Assembly (NCBI GenBank): GCA_945875845.1
Contig: CAMCMB010000021.1
Coordinates: 1 to 64,000 of the forward strand
DNA from: Pirellula staleyi DSM 6068
GTDB lineage: Bacteria > Planctomycetota > Planctomycetia > Pirellulales > Pirellulaceae
Direction of reading: 5' to 3'
DNA: 64,000 nt
Part shown: positions 13,686-64,000 of the stretch, one piece after another
Numbering within the stretch: position 1 is the first letter of the stretch
How the letters are laid out: the number at the start of each line of letters is the position of its first letter
The notes under the pieces: generated by a model
Database searches by the model: none
What the model saw: the letters and a program-made list of their open reading frames with translations, nothing else
Told to the model about the DNA's origin: nothing
Translations under genes and position numbers: made by a program

Positions 13686-14002
13686 TAAATTCGTTTCTGT
13701 AAATCAGCGAGGCAACCCGATCGTTTTCTCCCTTCAATGTACGAAATTACCGGATCGATTGTGGCTCTTTTGCTCTGGCTTTTCAAGTTCAATCCAAAAG
13801 GGAATGGATTTCTCGGGGGGTGAGGCCGGTGAGGCCACCCCCGTAAACATGTTTTCATAGGCTTTTTCAACCCATTCCTTGCTTGGGAGGGTGAGGCTCC
13901 TGCCGAACCGTGGCGTAAATAGCTCGGCAGGAGCCTCGCTCTCCCAAAAGGTGGGCCAATGTTCTACCAGCGAGTTCAACAAACGATCAGTACATACTTA
14001 GA
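13686..14002. repeat. Intergenic 'ggctcctgccga' family repeat (13829-13950)
   Basis: The element has gaggccaccc, aaacatgtttt, attccttgcttgggagg, then gtgaggctcctgccgaac and its inverted match gctcggcaggagcctcgctc. Related copies are at 32160-32313 (inverted), 43208-43385 and 62895-62972. No gene was found between the peroxiredoxin gene and the YTV terminators. Confidence 0.8.
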
Positions 14003-31990: not shown

Positions 31991-32477
31991 AGTTTTTATT
32001 GCTCACACGATTTAGGAGGGTTTTTGGAGTTTGCATTTGGCCGACTTCGGATGCGGGAATTTATTGTAATACGGTCTGTGAGCGTCCGCACCCCACCAGA
32101 TAGTTCGGCTGAACCGGTTTGCCCCAATGGCCTTGGAGGCTATCTCGCTTTTGAACCCAACAAATCATTGGGAAAAACGGGAGAGCGAGGCTCCTGCCGA
32201 GCTTACGACGCCATGGTTCGGCAGGAGCCTCACCCTCCCAGGCAATGAATGGATTGGGAAAAGTCGAGGAAAACATGTTTCGAGGGGTGGCCTGGCCCTC
32301 CCGATGAAATTGCAAGCCATTCGAATTGCAAGCCATTCGAATAAGGAAAGCGTGAATGTTTGGCGTGCTACGTCGGGCTGGGTGGAACGGAACAACCACA
32401 AACCCAATCCGTTCACTATAATTGCGTGGTTCTTGAGCACCTGTTTTTAGCAGTTTCGTAGAGTGAAAGGCGATCGT
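31991..32477. repeat. Intergenic inverted copy of the 'ggctcctgccga' family (32160-32313)
   Basis: The inverted element has gagcgaggctcctgccgagc, ggttcggcaggagcctcacc, then attgggaaaagtcgagg, aaacatgtttc and gaggggtggcc. It closely matches 43208-43385 in reverse, including the ccaacaaatcattggg edge. No promoter or gene could be confidently placed in the rest of this stretch. Confidence 0.8.
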
Positions 32478-42951: not shown

Positions 42952-43409
42952 CTGTTTCGGTTGGGTAAATTATGCTATCGGCCAAGTCGCAGATTCAATT
43001 CTGCTGCGATTGCTCTGAGGCCCAACAATTTCGACTAGGCGGTGTTAGCGGCGGAACCTTTGCGCAAGACCAATCTTTCGGAATCGTAGGCCCTTCACGG
43101 AACGATTCTGGTGATCCCATCCCTTTTCGCTCATGTGTTTCGTATTGGGCCCGCAACTCGATGTCCCCCGTTGATCCAAGAGGCCGTCTCGCGTTCCTTT
43201 TGGAATCGCTTGCAATTTCATCGGGAGTTTGAGGCCACCCCTCTAAACATGTTTTCCTCGACTTTGCCCAATCCATTCCTTGCTTGGGAGGGTGAGGCTC
43301 CTGCCGAACCATTGCGTCGTAAGCTCGGCAGGAGCCTCGCCCTCCCGATGGTTTCCAATGATTTGTTGGGAGTAAAAGCGAGACGGCCTTGTAACTCGTG
43401 GGTGCTTTG
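42952..43409. repeat. Intergenic 'ggctcctgccga' family copy (43208-43385)
   Basis: The element includes tttgaggccacccct, aaacatgttttc, gggagggtgaggctcctgcc, gctcggcaggagcctcgccc, then ccaatgatttgttggg. It is nearly the reverse complement of the copy at 32160-32313. No gene is evident in the remainder of the gap. Confidence 0.85.
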
Positions 43410-54875: not shown

Positions 54876-55829
54876 GTGTTGGCATCCACACTGCATCGCA
54901 TTTCTAGAATCTTTGATTTTTTCGACTCCGACGCCCAAAAGGCGAAGATGGAACATGTGATCGTTTGCTTAGCTGCAAGCGGATTCGTCATTCATTTAAT
55001 GCTAATTGCATTAGCTCAATCCGTCCCAAGCTTGAGAGTGGGTGTGCTTAGCCAGCTAAATTGCAACTTCCTACATGCAGTCTACACACCCTTCAGTTTT
55101 ATCTTGTTTTACGAAGTGATGCTGTTGGTGCTTGCTTTGCCTCGTTCGCACACGAGTTCCATTGGCAAGCAGTACGAGATTATCTCGTTGATCGTAATCC
55201 GACGTGTATTCAAAGACATTGGCGAATTCAGCGATCCGGCCAATTTGTTCGCGCAAACCGAAACGGCTTGGATGGTCCTCACCGACATGCTCGCTGCTGT
55301 TGCGATGTTTGCGCTCGTCACTTTATTTCAACGAATAAGTCAGACAGTTGCTCATTCGAAACCGCATTCGGATCTGGCCAGCTTTTTAGCGATAAAAAAA
55401 ACGGTTGCTGCCCTTCTATTTATTGTCCTGGTCCTACTTGCCATCTACAACGTCACGCAATGGGCCTCTGAGACTTTGGCGGAGTCATTGGGGCGGACCG
55501 CCGAAGCAAAAAATTTGGATTATTTTTTCTTTCCAGCGTTCTTTGAGTTCATGATCTTTACGGATGTGTTCCTGCTGATTGTTTCCATCCCGTTTTATGA
55601 TCGCTACGAGTATGTCATTCGCAACTCTGGGTTTGTTATTTCCACGGTTTTACTCCGTTTTTCCCTTTCGACACCGAAACCCTATGACCTTGCCATAGCC
55701 CTAGTCGCAATCGTCTATGGGCTATGCGTGCTAGGTGTTTTCTCCTACTTCACGCGGGTGATTGGGCCGTTTGTCGACAAACGATCTGCATCGGATGATG
55801 AGTCAAGCGGCGATTCCTTTGTGATTTGA
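54876..55829 (+). CDS. Polytopic membrane protein, unknown family
   Basis: 317 aa with about seven hydrophobic segments near residues 28-48, 63-90, 130-150, 170-192, 222-245, 255-270 and 278-300. No catalytic or transport motif was recognised. The last ~20 residues are polar and Ser/Asp-rich, likely cytoplasmic. It is an intact reading frame with no obvious partner gene and starts at a GTG (54876). Function not assigned. Confidence 0.75.
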   Translation: MLASTLHRISRIFDFFDSDAQKAKMEHVIVCLAASGFVIHLMLIALAQSVPSLRVGVLSQLNCNFLHAVYTPFSFILFYEVMLLVLALPRSHTSSIGKQYEIISLIVIRRVFKDIGEFSDPANLFAQTETAWMVLTDMLAAVAMFALVTLFQRISQTVAHSKPHSDLASFLAIKKTVAALLFIVLVLLAIYNVTQWASETLAESLGRTAEAKNLDYFFFPAFFEFMIFTDVFLLIVSIPFYDRYEYVIRNSGFVISTVLLRFSLSTPKPYDLAIALVAIVYGLCVLGVFSYFTRVIGPFVDKRSASDDESSGDSFVI

Positions 55830-56588: not shown

Positions 56589-59500
56589 ATGTTTGCGAAC
56601 TATTTCATAGCATTTCTCTTCGTTTTTTCGCTTTATTTGTGCGTACCTCCGGCTTTGGTGTCCCAAGAACCGGATTTGGCGAGTTTGGTACACCCAGACG
56701 TCGCGGAACGTTTGAGCTTGGAAGACGCTCAACGATCCACAATTCAAAATCTTCTCCAGTCCCGAGCTGAGGAATTGGCGCGACAAACGGACAAAGCATC
56801 CCAAGACAAGCTTAAGGCAGATTTCTCGAAACGAATCTTGGCTGTTTTAAACGACCAGCAGCGTGCGAAGTTGATTGAAACGCAAACGCCGAAGAAACTC
56901 ATGTTTCAATTCAGGGAGATGAAATGGGATGCGGTGCTCGATTGGTTCGCAAACCAACAAGATTTGACTTTGGTAATGGATCAAATCCCACCTGGAACAT
57001 TTACCTACAGCGATACACGCTCGTATTCGCCGAGCGAAGGAATCGATCTGCTCAATAGCGTACTGATGACGCGTAATTTCTCGCTTGTTCGCCGCGAGAA
57101 AATGCTGGTCGTAATGGCCCTAAGCGATTCAATACCCCTCGAGCTGCTTCCACGAGTCAAACTCGAAGAACTCGTGAAACGCGGCCGCTTTGAGTTGGTG
57201 AGTGTTGTTTTTCCACTGGGGGGGCGACCAATTGACGTCGTGCTCCAAGAAGTAAAACCGTACTTGAGCAGCTATGGACGGGCTGTGCCATTGGCGCAAG
57301 GCAGTCAAGTTTTGGTCGTTGAAACGGCGGGGAAAATGCAGACGATCAACGAGCTGATCGCTTCGGTGCCGTTGCCGAAGGCCGCACCGAAAGTACAGCC
57401 ACCGCCGCCGCCGCCCAGCCCGGTTTTTGCCTCCTACCCGCTTGGCGGTTTGGACGCAGCCCGCGCTTTGGAGACCATCCGCAAGCTCATCCCCAGCACC
57501 CAGATCACGGTCGACGACAAAACGGGCGTTCTTAGTGCATTCGTGATTCCCGATCAGCAAGCCGCTATCAAGCTGGCTATCGACCAGATGACGGCAAACG
57601 CATCTCAGTTATCGTCGTTCGAGTCCGTCGCGTATGAGCTAACTTGGTCAGGCGCCCCTGCGGAAGAGATTAAGAAGCAGATACTAAACTTGGCACCCAA
57701 CGCAACCGTAACTGCGACGACCGATCGCATTCTCGTAATCGCCCGAGCGGAAGAACAAAAACTGATCAAAACCAGTTTGGCCACTTTCGACGTGGTTCCA
57801 GCCGAAGCTGGCAAATCATTCGAAGCTGGCAAATCCATCCAAGTATTTGAGATGGATCCGACGGTAGCCCAGTTGGCCGAAGACGCCCTCCAATCTTTTT
57901 TGCCGAAAGGTCAGATCGCTTCCAACGGCAAGACCGGTAGCTTGATTGTTCGCGGCTCCCAAGAGGATCTGAGAATCGCGACGGAATTGGTCGAAATTTG
58001 GAAACGCTCACAGTCCGCAACCCAGCTCGTATTCCGTGTCTTTCCGCTTGAACAAAAAGCTGACCCGAAGTGGTTGGCGACGATCCAAAAAGTGGTACCA
58101 AATACCAATGCCTGGTTAGGGGATGATGGAAAGCAATTGATGTTGCTCGCACGCGCCGCCGAGATCGAATTGGTCGAAAAGATGTTGCCCGAATTGCAGA
58201 GTTTGTTACCGAAGCCCGACGAACGCAAGTTGCAGATCTATGAACTTTCCAAGAGTCAACTCGCCCGCCGAAGTAGTTTGACCGACTTGCCATCTAGTTT
58301 GCTCAATATCAAATTGGTCGACGGTAGCAACAAGCAAGAGCTCTTGGTTTGGGCAACAACCGAACAGCATACCGAATTCGCTAAGCTATTGAAGGGATTA
58401 GACCAGCCAGCACCTGTCCCCTTGCCAACGGTTCCCAGGATTTATCCGATTACGGTCCAGGACAGTTCGCTCATTGTTCAGATTCTAACATCCGAATTCC
58501 CCGATGCCAAAATCACGGCGGATGCGGATGGTACTAAGCTGACTGTGTTGGCAGATGCGGAGTCACAGACAAGACTTGAAACCCGCCTTAGTTTATTCAA
58601 CGAACAACTTCCAAAAAAGACGGAGCTCACTCTAGAAACCTATTCGGTCCGCGGCATGACGGCGGCCAGTTTGCAAGTGGCTCTCGCCCCATTGCTTACA
58701 AAAGCGCGAGTCAACTTGGATAGCGTAGGGAATAGACTACTCGTTGGGGCGGATGTCAAAACACACCAAGAAATTTCGGATTTGGTCAAGGCGCTGTCGG
58801 AGAAACTTGGTGTCGAGCAACAGCAAATTGTCGTGGCTTATCCGCTGGAGCATGCGCTGCCGTCGCAGGTGAAGATCGTCTTCGATCAACTTGCGTTGGG
58901 AACGACGTCCATCGCGGATGACAAACTCAGGCAGTTCGTTGTAACAGGACCACTTGCGACTCAAGCGATCGCGAAAGCCACCATCACTCAAATCGATCGA
59001 CCATTGCAATCGGGTGGGGGATCGCAAGAGATTCGCTCGTATGACGCTAAGAAATTGCAAGCGTCGGCGTTGATTCCGACGTTGCAAAAATTATGGCCCG
59101 ATTTGCAGTTGTCGGCCGACGCCACCGCGAACCGCATTATCGCCTCTGGGTCCCACAAGGAGCTCGAGCAACTGGACGCGGCCATAGAACGATTGATGGC
59201 GGCCCCTGATGGCAAGCCGCAGGTTGTCCAGACGTACCCGGTTCCTGCAGGCGACATGCTCACGCTGGCATCGATCCTTGGCCAAATCGCACCCCAAGCC
59301 GTAATCAGTAGCGATATCACCTCGCGAACCGTGACAGTTTGGGCGGGAGAAGATCAACAAGCGCGAGTCCAGCAAGCCCTAGAGCAAATTAGCAAGACTG
59401 CACAAGCCGCCAAAGAAGTCGCAACCTATCAAGTCAAACCGACTCAGGTTGTTGCAGTGCAAACCTCCTTGCAATCTCTTTTCCCTACGATTGGCGTTGC

Positions 59501-62500
59501 CGCCGTTCCAACGACTGGCCAACTGATTGTGGTTGCATCTGCGGATCAGCAGAAGCGAATTGCAGAAGTCGTTGAGTTAATGTCGAGTGGTCCCAACGCG
59601 TCGGAGCAAACGATCAAGGTCTTTCCCGTGGACGCCGAAGGTGCGGAGTTAACCAACTTGTTGAACGCTCTTCAATCGACTCTTCCACCTCAGATCAGGC
59701 TTGAGCCAAACTTGATCAACAGCACCATCATGGCGATCGGTACGCCAGAAGAATTAGAGGCGGTCGCGGCGAAAATGGATGAGTTGAAAAAGCAAATGCC
59801 TGCACCCGAGCCAACCGTGTCGAAGGTCTACAAACTTCGCTACACCACCACCAGTGGTGCGCTTGCCATTTTGCAGCCTTTGATGCCAAAGGCAATTTTT
59901 GTTCGCGATTCTGTGTCGAGAAGCCTAGCGGCCACCGCTAAAGCTAACGACCACCGGAAAATTGAAGAGTTCTTGAAGCAATTTGATGTGCCGACCGAGC
60001 CTGCCACCTATATGGTGAAACCATCGCAAGCGTTGATCGTTCAGTCCTCTTTAAAAGCCCTCTTTCCGCTGCTTGAGATCACTTCCGACCCAACTACCGG
60101 CCAATTGATCGTCATCGCAACGTCCGATCAGCAGGCGCGTGTCGCGGAAGTCGTGGAGTTGATGGCCAGTGGCCCCAATGCCTCGGATCGTACGATAAAA
60201 GTATTCAAGATCGATATGGAACGCGTTGAAATGACCGGCCTGCTCAGTGCGCTGCAAGCGACCTTGCCATCCCAAATTAAACTGGAATCCAGTACTCGCA
60301 ACGGTACGATTCTCGCTATCGGAAGCCCGGAAGAATTGGCGATGGTTTCAGACAAAATCACAAAACTGCAACAAGAACTTCCCGTTCCCGATGCGAACTC
60401 ATCCGTTGTTTATCCGCTGCAATATGGGAGTTCGTTGAGCGCCCTGACGATTCTCCAGTCTTTGGTGCCGCGAGCCACGCTTGTCCAAGACGCAACCTCG
60501 CGCACAATCGCTGCGACGGCGAAGGCACACGAGCACCAGAAGATCAAAGATTTTCTTACCGCTTTCGATCTCCCGAAATCGTCCAATCGGGAAACGCACG
60601 TGTATCGATTGAGGCAAGCAAGCGCTCGTGGGTTGTCGACCGTGCTAGTGGATCTCATGCCGGACGCAACCATCTATGGCTCTCGCGAAGAAGGTGTGCT
60701 TATTGCAACCGCGACACCCGAACAACACAAGCGAATCGAATCGATCGTCAAAGATTTTGATGTCGATCTTCAAAACAGTGCGACTCGCGTTTTTGCGATT
60801 GGAAAAGGGAATGCAACTTCGTTGAAAGCCGCCCTCCAAGGCTTTTCGCTAAAAGCGACGGCCACTGCCGACCTAGCTACGAACAGCCTAATCGTGACTG
60901 CCCCTGCCGCAGAGATGGAGCGGATTGCCCAGATCGTTACCGAAGTGGAATCCGGCAGCTCGAAGCAGAAAAACACGCGGTTCTATCCGCTTGTTGGAGC
61001 CGAGCCTGTACCACTCGCCAAGGCTATGCAAGAAAGTTTCGCAAAAGCAAGTTTTTCTGCGGACACGGTAAGCGGTGGTGTTTTTGCAACAGCGACCGAG
61101 GACGATCAACTCGAAATCGCGAAAGTGGTCGACGAGATCAATGCCCAGCCGACCAAACTCCCCACACTGAAAGCATTTGTTCTCAAGCACGCAAATCCAG
61201 AGAAGGTAGCCGAGGCACTTCAAAACGCATTTGGGAGACGCACGACTGCGGGCGTCAGTTTCAGTCGCGAAGCGAAGAGTGTTTTTGTTGTCGCCGGTCG
61301 TCAGGATTTGACGGTAGCTGAGCAATTGGTCGAACAATTCGATGTGCCAGACTCTTCCATCGACTCCAAGAGACTTCAACTCTTTTCCTTGAACGGAGCC
61401 GACGGAAAATCGCTGATCACTTCGATAGAGAGCCTTTTTAAGGAAGATTCAAACCGCGTCGATGTGAAATACGATCCGCTCAATCAACAGCTAATCGTCA
61501 CGGGGACTGCATCCCAGCTCAAATCGGTGGAGGAGGCCGTTAAGCAGTTTGCGCCTCCGCCGCGTGAGCTCGAAATCATTCAGTTGAACACGGCAGATCC
61601 CTTCTCCTTCAAGTTAGCAGCCGACGCGTTGTTTCAAGACGAAGCCGTATCAAGTGCACCGATGATCTCAGTCGATGCCAATCAACAACAGGTCTTGGTC
61701 CGAGCAACCAAAGATCAACTAGAGAGTATTCGCAAACTTCTGCAGCAGATGGGGGAAACGCAAACCACCAAAACCACCGATGTCTCGGCTGGATCGGGGC
61801 GATTGCGATTCGTACCTATTAAACGCAGCTCTAAACAGCTGTTAGAGGATATTCAGAAAGTGTGGCCGAACATGCGAAGCAATCCGATCAACGTCATGAA
61901 CCCTATGCCGATCGAGCCGGGAACAAAAGAGGCAGTACCGCCGCAGCCCGTAGCACCCAAAAAGACAGACGACTTGGGGCAATCTCGCTCGAAGGTGGTC
62001 GAAAGATTGGCAAGCGCACAAGCAATGCCGGATAACCAGCAAATTGCATCCGAACAACGCCCACCGATCATCGTTGTAACGGGGGAAGATCAATGGACAT
62101 TGGCGTCCGATGACTTGAATGCCCTAGATGCATTCACGCAACTTCTCGATTCACTGATGAGCCCGAAAGTGACTCCCTTTGCAACCGCCGGAAATTTCTC
62201 CGTTTACATTTTGCGACACGCGGACGCGAGCCACTTGCAGGAGATTCTTGTCGACCTCTTCCGGACGGGAGACAGTGGGAGGCGCACCTCTCTATCCGAC
62301 GCGTTACAAAGGGTAAAAATCGTCGCGGATGCACGCATTAACGGCTTAATCATCGGGGGAAACCGGGCGGATCGAAAAATTGTCGAAGAACTGTTGGCAG
62401 TTTTCGACTCTGAGGACCTGCTCGATACGCTTCAGCAGATCACTCCGAATATCGTACAGCTCGAAAGTGCGAGTGCAAAAAATGTGGTGAGCATTATTCA

Positions 62501-62825
62501 GAGTGTCTATAAGTCGCAATTTACGACAGGGGCCGGAAGAGTGCCCGTAGATATACCGGAGGGCGTTTCGGCGGACGTTGCGACGGTACTGCAACAAATC
62601 AATGCTCAGTCCGCAGGTCCATTGCTAACCGCAGCCGTTGACGACAACACCAACTCCATCGTACTCAGGGGCCCTACAAGCTTGACGGCTGAGGTGCGAA
62701 CTTTCATTGAAAAGTTAGATCAACAATCTGGGACAGCATCCGCCCGCCGGGTTCAGTTGCTGCGTCTCGAGTCCACCAATACCAAGAACCTTGAAAAAGC
62801 CCTCAATCTACTGCGATCCAAATAG
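56589..62825 (+). CDS. Giant exported protein of ~26 secretin N-domain-like repeats, no pore domain
   Basis: 2078 residues. A signal peptide (FIAFLFVFSLYLCVPPALVS) precedes a planctomycete-type helical lead (HPDVAERLSLEDAQR) and an N0-like domain near 100-175 (FREMKWDAVLDWFANQQDLT). From ~180 to the end come about 26 modules of ~60-85 residues. Each has a beta-strand start (x-YPL-), a helix, a strand with D-x-T-x-x-L-x-V-x-A/G and a helix, like NolW/secretin N1-type domains. The terminal beta-barrel and gate of a secretin are absent, and the last module is incomplete (RRVQLLRLESTNTKNLEKAL then stop). Two ~193-residue blocks at 945-1137 and 1138-1330 are close duplicates. A GspE-type ATPase follows, so a type II secretion or pilus role is likely. 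Confidence 0.82.
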   Translation: MFANYFIAFLFVFSLYLCVPPALVSQEPDLASLVHPDVAERLSLEDAQRSTIQNLLQSRAEELARQTDKASQDKLKADFSKRILAVLNDQQRAKLIETQTPKKLMFQFREMKWDAVLDWFANQQDLTLVMDQIPPGTFTYSDTRSYSPSEGIDLLNSVLMTRNFSLVRREKMLVVMALSDSIPLELLPRVKLEELVKRGRFELVSVVFPLGGRPIDVVLQEVKPYLSSYGRAVPLAQGSQVLVVETAGKMQTINELIASVPLPKAAPKVQPPPPPPSPVFASYPLGGLDAARALETIRKLIPSTQITVDDKTGVLSAFVIPDQQAAIKLAIDQMTANASQLSSFESVAYELTWSGAPAEEIKKQILNLAPNATVTATTDRILVIARAEEQKLIKTSLATFDVVPAEAGKSFEAGKSIQVFEMDPTVAQLAEDALQSFLPKGQIASNGKTGSLIVRGSQEDLRIATELVEIWKRSQSATQLVFRVFPLEQKADPKWLATIQKVVPNTNAWLGDDGKQLMLLARAAEIELVEKMLPELQSLLPKPDERKLQIYELSKSQLARRSSLTDLPSSLLNIKLVDGSNKQELLVWATTEQHTEFAKLLKGLDQPAPVPLPTVPRIYPITVQDSSLIVQILTSEFPDAKITADADGTKLTVLADAESQTRLETRLSLFNEQLPKKTELTLETYSVRGMTAASLQVALAPLLTKARVNLDSVGNRLLVGADVKTHQEISDLVKALSEKLGVEQQQIVVAYPLEHALPSQVKIVFDQLALGTTSIADDKLRQFVVTGPLATQAIAKATITQIDRPLQSGGGSQEIRSYDAKKLQASALIPTLQKLWPDLQLSADATANRIIASGSHKELEQLDAAIERLMAAPDGKPQVVQTYPVPAGDMLTLASILGQIAPQAVISSDITSRTVTVWAGEDQQARVQQALEQISKTAQAAKEVATYQVKPTQVVAVQTSLQSLFPTIGVAAVPTTGQLIVVASADQQKRIAEVVELMSSGPNASEQTIKVFPVDAEGAELTNLLNALQSTLPPQIRLEPNLINSTIMAIGTPEELEAVAAKMDELKKQMPAPEPTVSKVYKLRYTTTSGALAILQPLMPKAIFVRDSVSRSLAATAKANDHRKIEEFLKQFDVPTEPATYMVKPSQALIVQSSLKALFPLLEITSDPTTGQLIVIATSDQQARVAEVVELMASGPNASDRTIKVFKIDMERVEMTGLLSALQATLPSQIKLESSTRNGTILAIGSPEELAMVSDKITKLQQELPVPDANSSVVYPLQYGSSLSALTILQSLVPRATLVQDATSRTIAATAKAHEHQKIKDFLTAFDLPKSSNRETHVYRLRQASARGLSTVLVDLMPDATIYGSREEGVLIATATPEQHKRIESIVKDFDVDLQNSATRVFAIGKGNATSLKAALQGFSLKATATADLATNSLIVTAPAAEMERIAQIVTEVESGSSKQKNTRFYPLVGAEPVPLAKAMQESFAKASFSADTVSGGVFATATEDDQLEIAKVVDEINAQPTKLPTLKAFVLKHANPEKVAEALQNAFGRRTTAGVSFSREAKSVFVVAGRQDLTVAEQLVEQFDVPDSSIDSKRLQLFSLNGADGKSLITSIESLFKEDSNRVDVKYDPLNQQLIVTGTASQLKSVEEAVKQFAPPPRELEIIQLNTADPFSFKLAADALFQDEAVSSAPMISVDANQQQVLVRATKDQLESIRKLLQQMGETQTTKTTDVSAGSGRLRFVPIKRSSKQLLEDIQKVWPNMRSNPINVMNPMPIEPGTKEAVPPQPVAPKKTDDLGQSRSKVVERLASAQAMPDNQQIASEQRPPIIVVTGEDQWTLASDDLNALDAFTQLLDSLMSPKVTPFATAGNFSVYILRHADASHLQEILVDLFRTGDSGRRTSLSDALQRVKIVADARINGLIIGGNRADRKIVEELLAVFDSEDLLDTLQQITPNIVQLESASAKNVVSIIQSVYKSQFTTGAGRVPVDIPEGVSADVATVLQQINAQSAGPLLTAAVDDNTNSIVLRGPTSLTAEVRTFIEKLDQQSGTASARRVQLLRLESTNTKNLEKALNLLRSK

Positions 62826-62894
62826 CCGAATGGCCAATTGCGTAGGACGCCGACGGGTTCACCCATATCGGCACGAGATGATTCTTTTTCGCTT

Positions 62895-62972
62895 TGGGAG
62901 AGCGAGGCTCCTGCCGAACTTGTGACAAGATGGTTCGGCAGGAGCCTCACCCTCCCGAGCAACGAATGGTTC
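62895..62972. repeat. Partial copy of the 'ggctcctgccga' family
   Basis: gagcgaggctcctgccgaac and its inverse ggttcggcaggagcctcacc are separated by 10 bases. It is the same repeat as at 13829, 32160 and 43208 but lacks the aaacatgttt edge. Confidence 0.85.
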
Positions 62973-63094
62973 GGCAATGTACGAGATAACGGGTGTGTTC
63001 TCGCCCCCCCCCCCTTTTGGCTATGCTCTTGTTTGCAATTGCACTGCAATCCCACAAACGGGTAAACTTCTTTTCTGAAAGTGTATTCTTTGGC

Positions 63095-63100
63095 TATAAT
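63095..63100 (+). promoter_or_regulatory. Candidate -10 box upstream of the GspE-type gene
   Basis: A perfect TATAAT lies at 63095-63100, with a weak tttctg-type -35 at about 63072. It is 190 bases before the ATPase start. This is the most sigma70-like match I saw in this gap, but the -35 is poor. Confidence 0.35.
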
Positions 63101-63290
63101 GCTCCTTAGACGTATTCTATCCAATACTGTCTCCCACCGTTTTCACCCTACCGCATTCCAGTTCCATCGTGAAAGAGCTCCTTTCCGATCAACACCCACC
63201 CCTATATAGGTGCTTTTACCAATTGCGAACGCTCGCCCTCCCTGCTTTGTTCGCTGAGAAAAGCATCCCACGTATTCACGGATTGACACG

Positions 63291-64000
63291 ATGATCTCGA
63301 ATTCCACGGGAATGCATCCATTGCTAGACACTGTTCAACTGCGTCAATTGGCGGATTGCCTCAGCTTGGGTGATTCCCTCGATCAGCTTGCGGAACAATG
63401 GTCGTTTAACAGCTCGCTCGAATTGCTCGCCACCAGCGCTCGGTCCATGAAGCTTGATTGGCTAGACACGGACAATGGTGATTTCGCTGCCGAAACGCTG
63501 GAAGGCTTTCCGGCGAAGCTGATCCACCGACACGCTGTCTTTCCGCTTGAGCGCGGACCAGGCTGGCTGAGATTGGCCGTCAGCAATCCGTTTGACTTTG
63601 CGGCGATCGATTCGGTTGCATCCGCCCTGGAGGTGGAGGTTCGGCCGGTGATGGCCGCTCCCGAAACCGTTCAGAAATTGATCAAGCGGCATCTCGGCGT
63701 TGGCTCGGAAACAATCGATGGTTTGATCGCTCTCCAGCGGCAACAACCAGGCGACGTGGAGATGCTCGAAGGGCTTGATCCTGATAGTTTGGAAGATGCT
63801 GCCGAAGCCCAACAAGCCTCCGTGGTCGGGCTCGTCAACGAGATCCTCAGTGAAGCCATCCAAGCGAGAGCCAGCGACATCCATATTGAATCGCAGGAGT
63901 CTGGACTCAAGATACGCCACCGCATCGATGGAGTTTTGCAGAAACAACCGACTCCACCCGAGATGAACCAGTTCCGTGCTGCGATCATCAGCCGACTCAA
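63291..64000 (+). CDS. gspE: GspE/PilB-type secretion ATPase, N-terminal part (runs off the window)
   Basis: ATG 63291; 236 complete codons are visible and there is no stop by 64000. The N-terminal T2SSE_N/MshEN-like region (residues ~1-150) has GPGWLRLAVSNPFDFAAIDSV and VQKLIKRHLGV. The core start QASVVGLVNEILSEAIQARASDIHIE at ~174-199 (ASDIHIE signature) and LKIRHRIDGVLQ identify a type II secretion or type IV pilus assembly ATPase. The Walker motifs lie beyond the window. It follows the secretin-repeat gene by 465 bases. Confidence 0.93.
   Translation, partial: MISNSTGMHPLLDTVQLRQLADCLSLGDSLDQLAEQWSFNSSLELLATSARSMKLDWLDTDNGDFAAETLEGFPAKLIHRHAVFPLERGPGWLRLAVSNPFDFAAIDSVASALEVEVRPVMAAPETVQKLIKRHLGVGSETIDGLIALQRQQPGDVEMLEGLDPDSLEDAAEAQQASVVGLVNEILSEAIQARASDIHIESQESGLKIRHRIDGVLQKQPTPPEMNQFRAAIISRL

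Follow-up and report, generated by a model that had tools for sequence, protein, structure and literature searches.

A planctomycete protein-export gate that appears to consist of two proteins, one carrying a long series of secretin N modules

Results

A type II secretion operon opens with a long pore-less protein

The window examined is a stretch of 64,000 nucleotides from Pirellula staleyi DSM 6068. The ORF list and translation show a single uninterrupted reading frame of 2078 amino acids on its plus strand, at 56589-62825, with the following features.

56589..62825, plus strand: pore-less multi-N-domain secretin-like protein, 2078 aa, gene 1 of a T2SS operon
56589..56666, plus strand: probable Sec signal peptide, residues 1-26, from the translation judged by eye
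56667..56879, plus strand: N-terminal domain made of helices, residues 27-97 (helical in AF2, where pLDDT averages about 70-90 over 27-96)
56880..57131, plus strand: N0 domain, residues 98-181 (PF21305 in 24 of 25 homologous regions; weak PilQ N0 profile matches)
57132..57392, plus strand: N1 module, residues ~182-268, kept along with N0 in pore-less homologues
57417..61757, plus strand: tandem run of 22 secretin N modules, residues 277-1723, from an iterated module HMM
61785..62168, plus strand: putative N module interrupted by a long insertion, residues ~1733-1860 (weak HMM match, E 0.09)
62187..62723, plus strand: final pair of full N modules, residues 1867-2045, from the module HMM
62751..62822, plus strand: conserved terminal half module, probably beta-alpha by comparison with the AF2 model of full modules, residues 2055-2078
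63291..64000, plus strand: gspE (MshEN + T2SSE), cut off by the window end; its length in locus L005 is 564 aa

The preliminary description had placed the protein before a GspE-type gene, and gspE does begin at 63291, with gspF, gspG, pseudopilin-like genes and K-, L- and M-like genes following beyond the window end. Its suggestion to look downstream for inner-membrane T2SS genes and a pore was borne out for the former; no pore gene lies on this contig, nor was a gspD found in the operon behind the long gene. Genes E, F and G are named by Pfam, J from a weak match (1.3e-4, below the cut-off), K from one also below the cut-off (0.11), and H and I from the prepilin motif only. The remaining two, without a T2SS match in Pfam, we take to be L and M from their position. 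Judged from sequence, the long protein sits with gspE, gspF, gspG and pseudopilin genes.

The order tube-E-F-G-H-I-J-K-L-M-(BON)-pore recurs across loci. The long gene lies immediately before gspE in 23 of the 34 loci that could be judged, while in the other 11 gspE was not found directly after it. A second T2SS in the same genome has a shorter pore-less version immediately before its own gspE. The expected partner of an N0 domain is a GspC-type HR domain on an inner-membrane protein. The M protein has a conserved C-terminal domain that matches no HR family or structure, with one of 20 members matching T2SSB (0.073); it may resemble the HR domain of GspC.

The C-terminal pore is missing

No secretin pore (PF00263) was found in the 2078-residue protein by Pfam scan at E up to 10, in agreement with the barrel-less architecture first described, and by this absence the protein is half of a secretin rather than a secretin in itself. 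Its 3' end hides no pore: the 465 nt before gspE (62826-63290) are too few for the 169 codons of the pore model and hold no plus-strand ORF of at least 80 aa, and PF00263 is absent from the contig. Among the long proteins, 35 distinct ones could be followed as far as the stop codon, and every one of them, the present protein among them, has N0, is without a pore, and finishes in the same half module; homologues with a pore fused past a 3' frameshift, which would have spoken against the preliminary description, do not occur among them.

A GspD-type N0 domain precedes about 26 modules

The N0-like domain of the preliminary description can now be given a type. When homologous N0 regions were scanned singly, model PF21305 (type_II_gspD_N0) matched 24 of 25 at E up to 1, with a best value of 2.1e-5. 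The region from the 2078-residue protein scored E 0.0092 and 16.3 bits, below the curated cut-off of 27, and the model is absent from the results of the whole-protein Pfam scan. PDB profile matches to PilQ N0 are weak (E 0.35 and above), and an AF2 model of the N-terminal 319 residues is poor over N0 and N1, with block means of 37-53. Taken together, the sequence matches point to a GspD-type N0 domain.

Pfam model Secretin_N recognizes the 2078-residue protein with E 1.8e-102 in 18 separate stretches. An iterated module HMM, with an E cut-off of 0.05 during building and 0.01 in the later scan, finds 24 modules, 22 of them as the tandem run. N1 gets no score from this HMM and is counted separately. 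Because N1 and the insertion-bearing module are to be added to the 24, the total comes to about 26 full modules, the number originally proposed, besides N0 and the final beta-alpha half module. Residues 1867-1966 match GspD 5wq7 (whole-sequence E 3.4e-6). Modules 11-13 and 14-16 represent an internal block duplication, with identities of 60, 54 and 51%. Linkers between tandem modules are 0-12 residues long; the one before the last module has 16. Across the 35 long proteins read to the stop, this one with its 24 included, the HMM detects from 16 to 50 modules.

For structure prediction, the alignment was made from non-overlapping three-module segments; overlapping four-module segments were misregistered by MAFFT, which aligned the sequence they share. 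AF2 predicts modules 10-12 as three beta-alpha-beta-beta-alpha domains (pLDDT 77), and the best 25 PDB matches to this model are all T2SS secretin or T3SS injectisome entries. The prediction thus gives the secretin N folds that the preliminary description called for, and the modeled modules show the N1-type beta-alpha-beta-beta-alpha fold. Their placing relative to each other is unreliable in the model (pTM 0.39), with an rmsd of 10-41 A to the best 25 matches over all three modules.

Separate pore proteins

In relatives, the same locus often codes for a pore-bearing secretin without N0, so that the pore expected on another protein does have a gene. The Pirellula genome itself encodes four PF00263 pores, on contigs C97, C20, C24 and C2, none of them the contig of the long gene. 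The C97 protein (L010:901-4119) has several N modules and a pore, without N0. It groups in a phylogenetic tree with operon-linked pores, at a fork with those of G077 and G082 supported at 100/100, and is 45-61% identical to 16 operon-linked pores; its identity to five T2SS-A-type pores (that of C20 and four others) is 31-38%. It was picked as the candidate partner on these two grounds, tree placing and identity. Support for the entire B-type pore clade is weak (80/70). As for the other candidates, the C20 pore joins a T2SS-A-type pore (95/93, both branches being long enough to draw a warning from the tree program), no Secretin_N is seen in the C24 protein, and the C2 pore adjoins a cpaB-like gene and is probably a Tad/Rcp secretin.

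PF21305 was not found in the first 200 residues of 22 Pirellulaceae pore proteins, L086 being an unfair test with a start that looks overextended, and an N0 HMM finds no N0 over the full length of the same 22. The N0 profile compared with the pore alignment gives a probability of 0.6%. The pore proteins carry N modules of their own, 16 of the 22 N-terminal stretches matching Secretin_N. Most begin with whole modules, and no half module that could complete the terminal half of the tube was seen by eye at their starts. The split is not clean everywhere: in family f2, a pore protein retains an N0-like region in all six genomes sampled. A long homolog occurs in 42 genomes, and in 23 of them no pore near it was among the matches listed, on contigs that are themselves cut short. 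The two genes can lie apart, as in G000, G023, G025 and G112, and likewise in the Pirellula genome, whose pore gene is outside the operon. Overall, gene association suggests that the N-terminal domains and the pore are carried by two genes of one system.

Fused giant secretins

Four genomes from two other planctomycete families (G120, G152, G213 and G229) encode N0, modules and pore together, each in one ORF of 4213-5008 aa. The module HMM finds 31-39 modules in these proteins, and the two scanned with Pfam have 42 and 41 Secretin_N stretches. One of the four adjoins gspE, F, G, K and L. With N0, some 31-42 modules and a pore in one chain, they are actual cases of a long module stack in line with a pore. 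These natural fusions favor a tube that continues into the pore rather than a scaffold independent of it.

Discussion

From the domains, the module fold, the gene order, the separate N0-less pore, conservation, and the natural fusions elsewhere in the phylum, we propose that a T2SS secretin is here split in two and that the 2078-residue protein is its inner half, which lacks the pore: a greatly lengthened stack of rings, docked to the inner-membrane platform and meeting a pore protein. We put the probability of this at roughly two in three. The protein-export gate of these planctomycetes seems to be shared between two proteins rather than formed by one, a separate gene supplying the outer-membrane pore, and the module number suggests an unusually long tube across a wide outer space. 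The GspD-type N0 at the N-terminus would face the inner-membrane platform, and about 26 modules would extend outwards as oligomeric rings forming a continuous tube, perhaps some tens of nanometres long. The outer end would contact a separately encoded secretin with several N modules and a pore but no N0, here probably that of C97, the two together functioning as one greatly lengthened GspD. Tandem duplication of modules or module blocks may have produced the 16-50 modules, by HMM count, seen between species; the periplasmic channel could in this way be tuned in length. A broader proposal is that planctomycetes build a two-part channel whose self-standing tube bridges the expanded periplasm, consists of 16 to 50 or more rings, measures some tens to more than 100 nm, and is adjusted in length by tandem duplication of ring modules, and that in some lineages tube and pore are joined in a single chain exceeding 4,000 residues. 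This is more tentative and falls a little short of an even chance.

The modules might instead form a monomeric or laterally loose string, a scaffold or tether attached to the platform via N0 and reaching the pore or the peptidoglycan, with no closed tube. We consider this unlikely. The unfixed placing of modules in the AF2 model, the linkers between them, and the free change of module number between species fit a tether as well as a tube. Solved secretins, however, are oligomeric ring stacks, and the four fused giants join the module stack to a pore. The best-matching known structures also show this module type as stacked rings, and Thermus PilQ has such rings as well (PMC5745081).

Less likely still, and in our view decidedly improbable, the pore protein alone is a complete T2SS secretin, and the long protein, derived from a duplicated gspD, builds some other structure in the periplasm or on the surface and merely shares the operon. 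Having several N modules themselves, the pores might find a different way to the platform, the f2 pore keeps its N0, and the two genes need not be neighbors. Against this stand the division of N0 and pore between the two proteins in the Pirellulaceae tested, the frequent position of the long gene directly ahead of gspE, and the repetition of that arrangement by the shorter pore-less version in the second T2SS. That the long protein is a giant secretin truncated by sequencing error, misassembly, frameshift or pseudogene formation can be virtually dismissed, even with fused giants present in other planctomycetes, given the common end of all 35 proteins, the short gap before gspE, and the recurrence of separate pore genes at the same locus.

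The question addressed is how large molecules are transported across the very wide planctomycete periplasm. Boedeker et al. (2017) describe that periplasm as huge, with outer-membrane complexes touching the inner membrane like press studs; in the available part of the paper no component of these complexes is named, and the word "secretin" is absent from its main text (PMC5394234). A much-stretched secretin, split or fused, is a concrete candidate machine for spanning such a gap. The series from 16 to 50 detected modules offers natural lengths in which to study ring stacking and the limits of channel length, and the split system lets one ask how the tube of one protein joins the pore of another. 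Within the accessible portions of the open-licence literature on planctomycete secretins and T2SS, crateriform structures, and giant or split secretins, no description of the long protein was recognized.

Among known systems, the T2SS secretin GspD (PulD, XcpQ, ExeD, EpsD) shares N0, N1-type modules, a gsp operon and the best PDB matches. GspD usually has three modules after N0, whereas here there are about 26, with no C-terminal pore and the pore on a separate gene. Division of a secretin is known from rhizobial T3SS, where RhcC1 is small. There, RhcC1 (NolW) and RhcC2 are reported to be the N-terminal and C-terminal proteins (PMC3574062, PMC3973906). The likeness lies in the division itself; the gene cluster here is T2SS rather than T3SS, and the N-terminal half has grown to 16-50 detected modules. 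PilQ of Thermus thermophilus has extra N domains that stack as six rings (N0-N5), said to span most of a wide periplasm (PMC5745081), but it is one protein including the pore, and serves type IV pili and DNA uptake. The fused giant secretins of other Planctomycetota families come from the same phylum, carry N0 and a comparably long module series, and in one case stand beside T2SS genes; they differ in holding the pore within the same chain.

Results

Architecture of the proposed tube protein

The protein of 2078 residues, here called the tube protein after its proposed form, has at its N-terminus a signal peptide, recognised by eye, and then a helical domain. Residues 98-181 make up a GspD-type N0 domain, followed by N1, 22 tandem modules, a module with a long insertion, two further modules and a conserved half module. 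Pfam finds Secretin_N in 18 stretches (E = 1.8e-102) and no match to a pore domain. The preliminary description had counted about 26 modules, which is right; the module HMM alone scores 24.

Features of the window
56589-62825, forward strand: tube protein gene
54876-55829, upstream of the tube gene: protein of 317 residues that contains hydrophobic stretches and is unmatched in Pfam
13894-13936, 32188-32230, 43295-43337, 62905-62947: four copies of a 43-base element

The 43-base sequence is a dispersed hairpin element, its two ends inverted and each marked by AGGCTCCTGCCGAA/G. Its arms give 8 matches with at most one mismatch against 0.03 expected, and one copy sits just downstream of the tube gene.

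Modules 10-12 were modelled by AF2 on an alignment that also contained 27 other module triplets, drawn from the tube protein and from three orthologues. The model shows beta-alpha-beta-beta-alpha three times (pLDDT 77, pTM 0.39). Its best 25 PDB matches by Foldseek are all T2SS secretin or T3SS injectisome entries, the latter listed without chain names, and ExeD leads (3.4e-7); below these, ribosome-assembly structures are interspersed with further secretin and T3SS entries. Because module-to-module placing disagrees with solved structures (rmsd 10-41 A), the model speaks to module identity, not to stacking, and the predicted fold identifies the tube modules as secretin N domains. In a second model, covering residues 27-345, only the helical domain and the last module are good.

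The T2SS operon

Downstream of the tube gene lie gspE (T2SSE, 1.6e-137), gspF (1.1e-56), gspG (2.2e-26) and three genes bearing a prepilin motif. Also present are a large K-like gene (T2SSK at just 0.11), L- and M-like genes for which Pfam gives no T2SS match, and one encoding a BON-domain protein. No gspD was found on this contig. The M protein carries a conserved terminal domain with a possible likeness to HR, which would make it a candidate partner of N0; two database searches returned no match confirming that likeness.

The gene order tube-E-F-G-H-I-J-K-L-M-(BON)-pore recurs among relatives, with genes labelled by similarity to the own-genome operon. Unlabelled ORFs apart, gspE is the next labelled gene in 23 distinct long-tube loci and was not found in that position in 11 (L043, L045, L053, L057, L060, L069, L070 with L094, L080, L082, L084, L085). 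The T2SS operon of L053 lies on a different contig (L107), and L085 has a gspG match 4.4 kb after the tube gene. The remaining loci in the gene-order table end too early to judge or repeat the same genome.

A second own-genome T2SS (contig C3) also starts with a pore-less N0 protein, shorter at 1122 residues (L089:3821-7189), with a glycine-rich tail beyond the half module; its gene directly precedes gspE. Separately, contig C105 encodes a third own-genome N0+N1 protein, pore-less and of 1060 residues (L117:7469-10651), and the 13.5 kb stretch fetched showed no recognisable T2SS gene; proteins like it, of 983 and 1001 residues, occur in G018 and G142 (L122, L121).

Length variation within Pirellulaceae

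The N0+N1 profile matches at least one protein in 113 of 119 genomes of the tube protein's family (f1), taken here to be Pirellulaceae. In at least 36 of the 119 the open frame around the match is 1500 residues long or longer; others end at contig ends. Most other N0+N1 frames among the matches listed span about 900-1430 residues, and two of this class fetched at a T2SS (L089, L090) both lack a pore; in L090 (genome G043), gspE lies 7.3 kb further along on the same strand.

All 35 distinct long proteins read to a stop codon, the tube protein included, have N0, lack a pore and, from inspection of their tails, end in a half module. Their lengths are 1588-4168 residues and their module counts 16-50 at E<0.01, the tube protein scoring 24; the start of L060 may lie outside the stretch fetched. 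This set leaves aside L075, L078, L083 and L086 (cut before the stop) and L050 and L051 (duplicates of a sequence already counted). L087, on a cut contig, has 60 modules within 4140 residues.

Tandem duplication changes the module number, as comparisons within nine proteins show. Tube modules 11-13 are 60, 54 and 51% identical to modules 14-16, against a median of 21%, and neighbouring modules of L054 reach 98%. At a four-module lag, three module pairs in L084 (93-97% identical) and four in L087 (94-97%) suggest recent changes in array length.

A separately encoded pore

The own genome encodes four PF00263 proteins, every one on a contig other than that of the tube gene. Long homologues, matching beyond the N0-N1 region, occur in at least 42 of 119 genomes, and in at least 19 of these 42 a pore gene lies no more than about 20 kb away on that contig. 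The 1072-residue pore on own-genome contig C97 clusters with operon-linked pores of G077 and G082 (100/100). It is 45-61% identical to 16 linked (B-type) pores, 31-38% to four T2SS-A-type pores and the own-genome pore on C20, and 18% to that on C24.

In the 22 Pirellulaceae pores that carry N modules, PF21305 had no match in the first 200 residues (the L086 start looks overextended) and the N0 HMM found none; comparing the N0 profile with the alignment of pores gave a probability of 0.6%. Conversely, a search with the N0+N1 region found 47 proteins, none of them a pore. Since the tested pores show no N0, profile searches assign N0 and pore to two different proteins throughout the Pirellulaceae examined, with N0 in the one that lacks the pore. 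Improbable beside this is the alternative that the pore alone is a complete T2SS secretin and the long protein a separate structure.

Fused giants and a second family

Across the phylum-wide sample, the N0+N1 profile matches 28 of 149 genomes. Three genomes of one genus (G120, G152, G213) and one of another family (G229) carry N0+N1, modules and a terminal pore in one ORF (stretches L111, L113, L109, L115, all from Planctomycetota families other than Pirellulaceae). These ORFs of 4213-5008 residues hold 31-39 modules by the module HMM at E<0.01, or 37-40 when fewer sequences are searched. The two scanned with Pfam gave 42 and 41 Secretin_N stretches and PF00263 at 4.5e-50 and 5.3e-46, with PF21305 in one. 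Long module stacks thus do exist in line with a pore. The G229 gene adjoins gspE, F, G, K and L; no T2SS genes were recognised around the other three within the stretches fetched. Other pores of this sample lie in frames of up to about 1,370 residues among the matches listed. The fused giants may be independent expansions, because their pores fall outside the Pirellulaceae pore clade.

All six sampled genomes of family f2, which belongs to the same class as Pirellulaceae, encode both a pore-less-type protein (frames of 1246-1358 residues) and a pore (1318-1366) starting with an N0-like region; in G166 (L119) the operon begins at the former and extends to the latter. This pairing suggests duplication of a complete secretin gene, after which one copy would have lost the pore and, in Pirellulaceae, the other N0.

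Discussion

We favour, at roughly two chances in three, a split T2SS secretin with the tube protein as its inner half; the figure is set slightly lower, and that of the rival in which the pore alone is the complete secretin slightly higher, because pore and gspE linkage appear in only part of the loci. By PilQ-like logic, N0 of the tube protein would face the platform, and the modules would stack outward until they meet the pore protein. By rough, uncomputed scaling from known structures, 26 rings might add several tens of nm.

We found no split T2SS secretin of 16-50 modules, and no fused secretin beyond 4,000 residues, among the open-licence papers listed by literature searches. Extra rings have a precedent in Thermus PilQ, whose six stacked rings, as described in PMC5745081, span most of a wide periplasm. 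A split secretin has one in the rhizobial T3SS, where PMC3574062 and PMC3973906 describe RhcC1/NolW and RhcC2 as separate proteins; here the system is a T2SS, with 16-50 modules.
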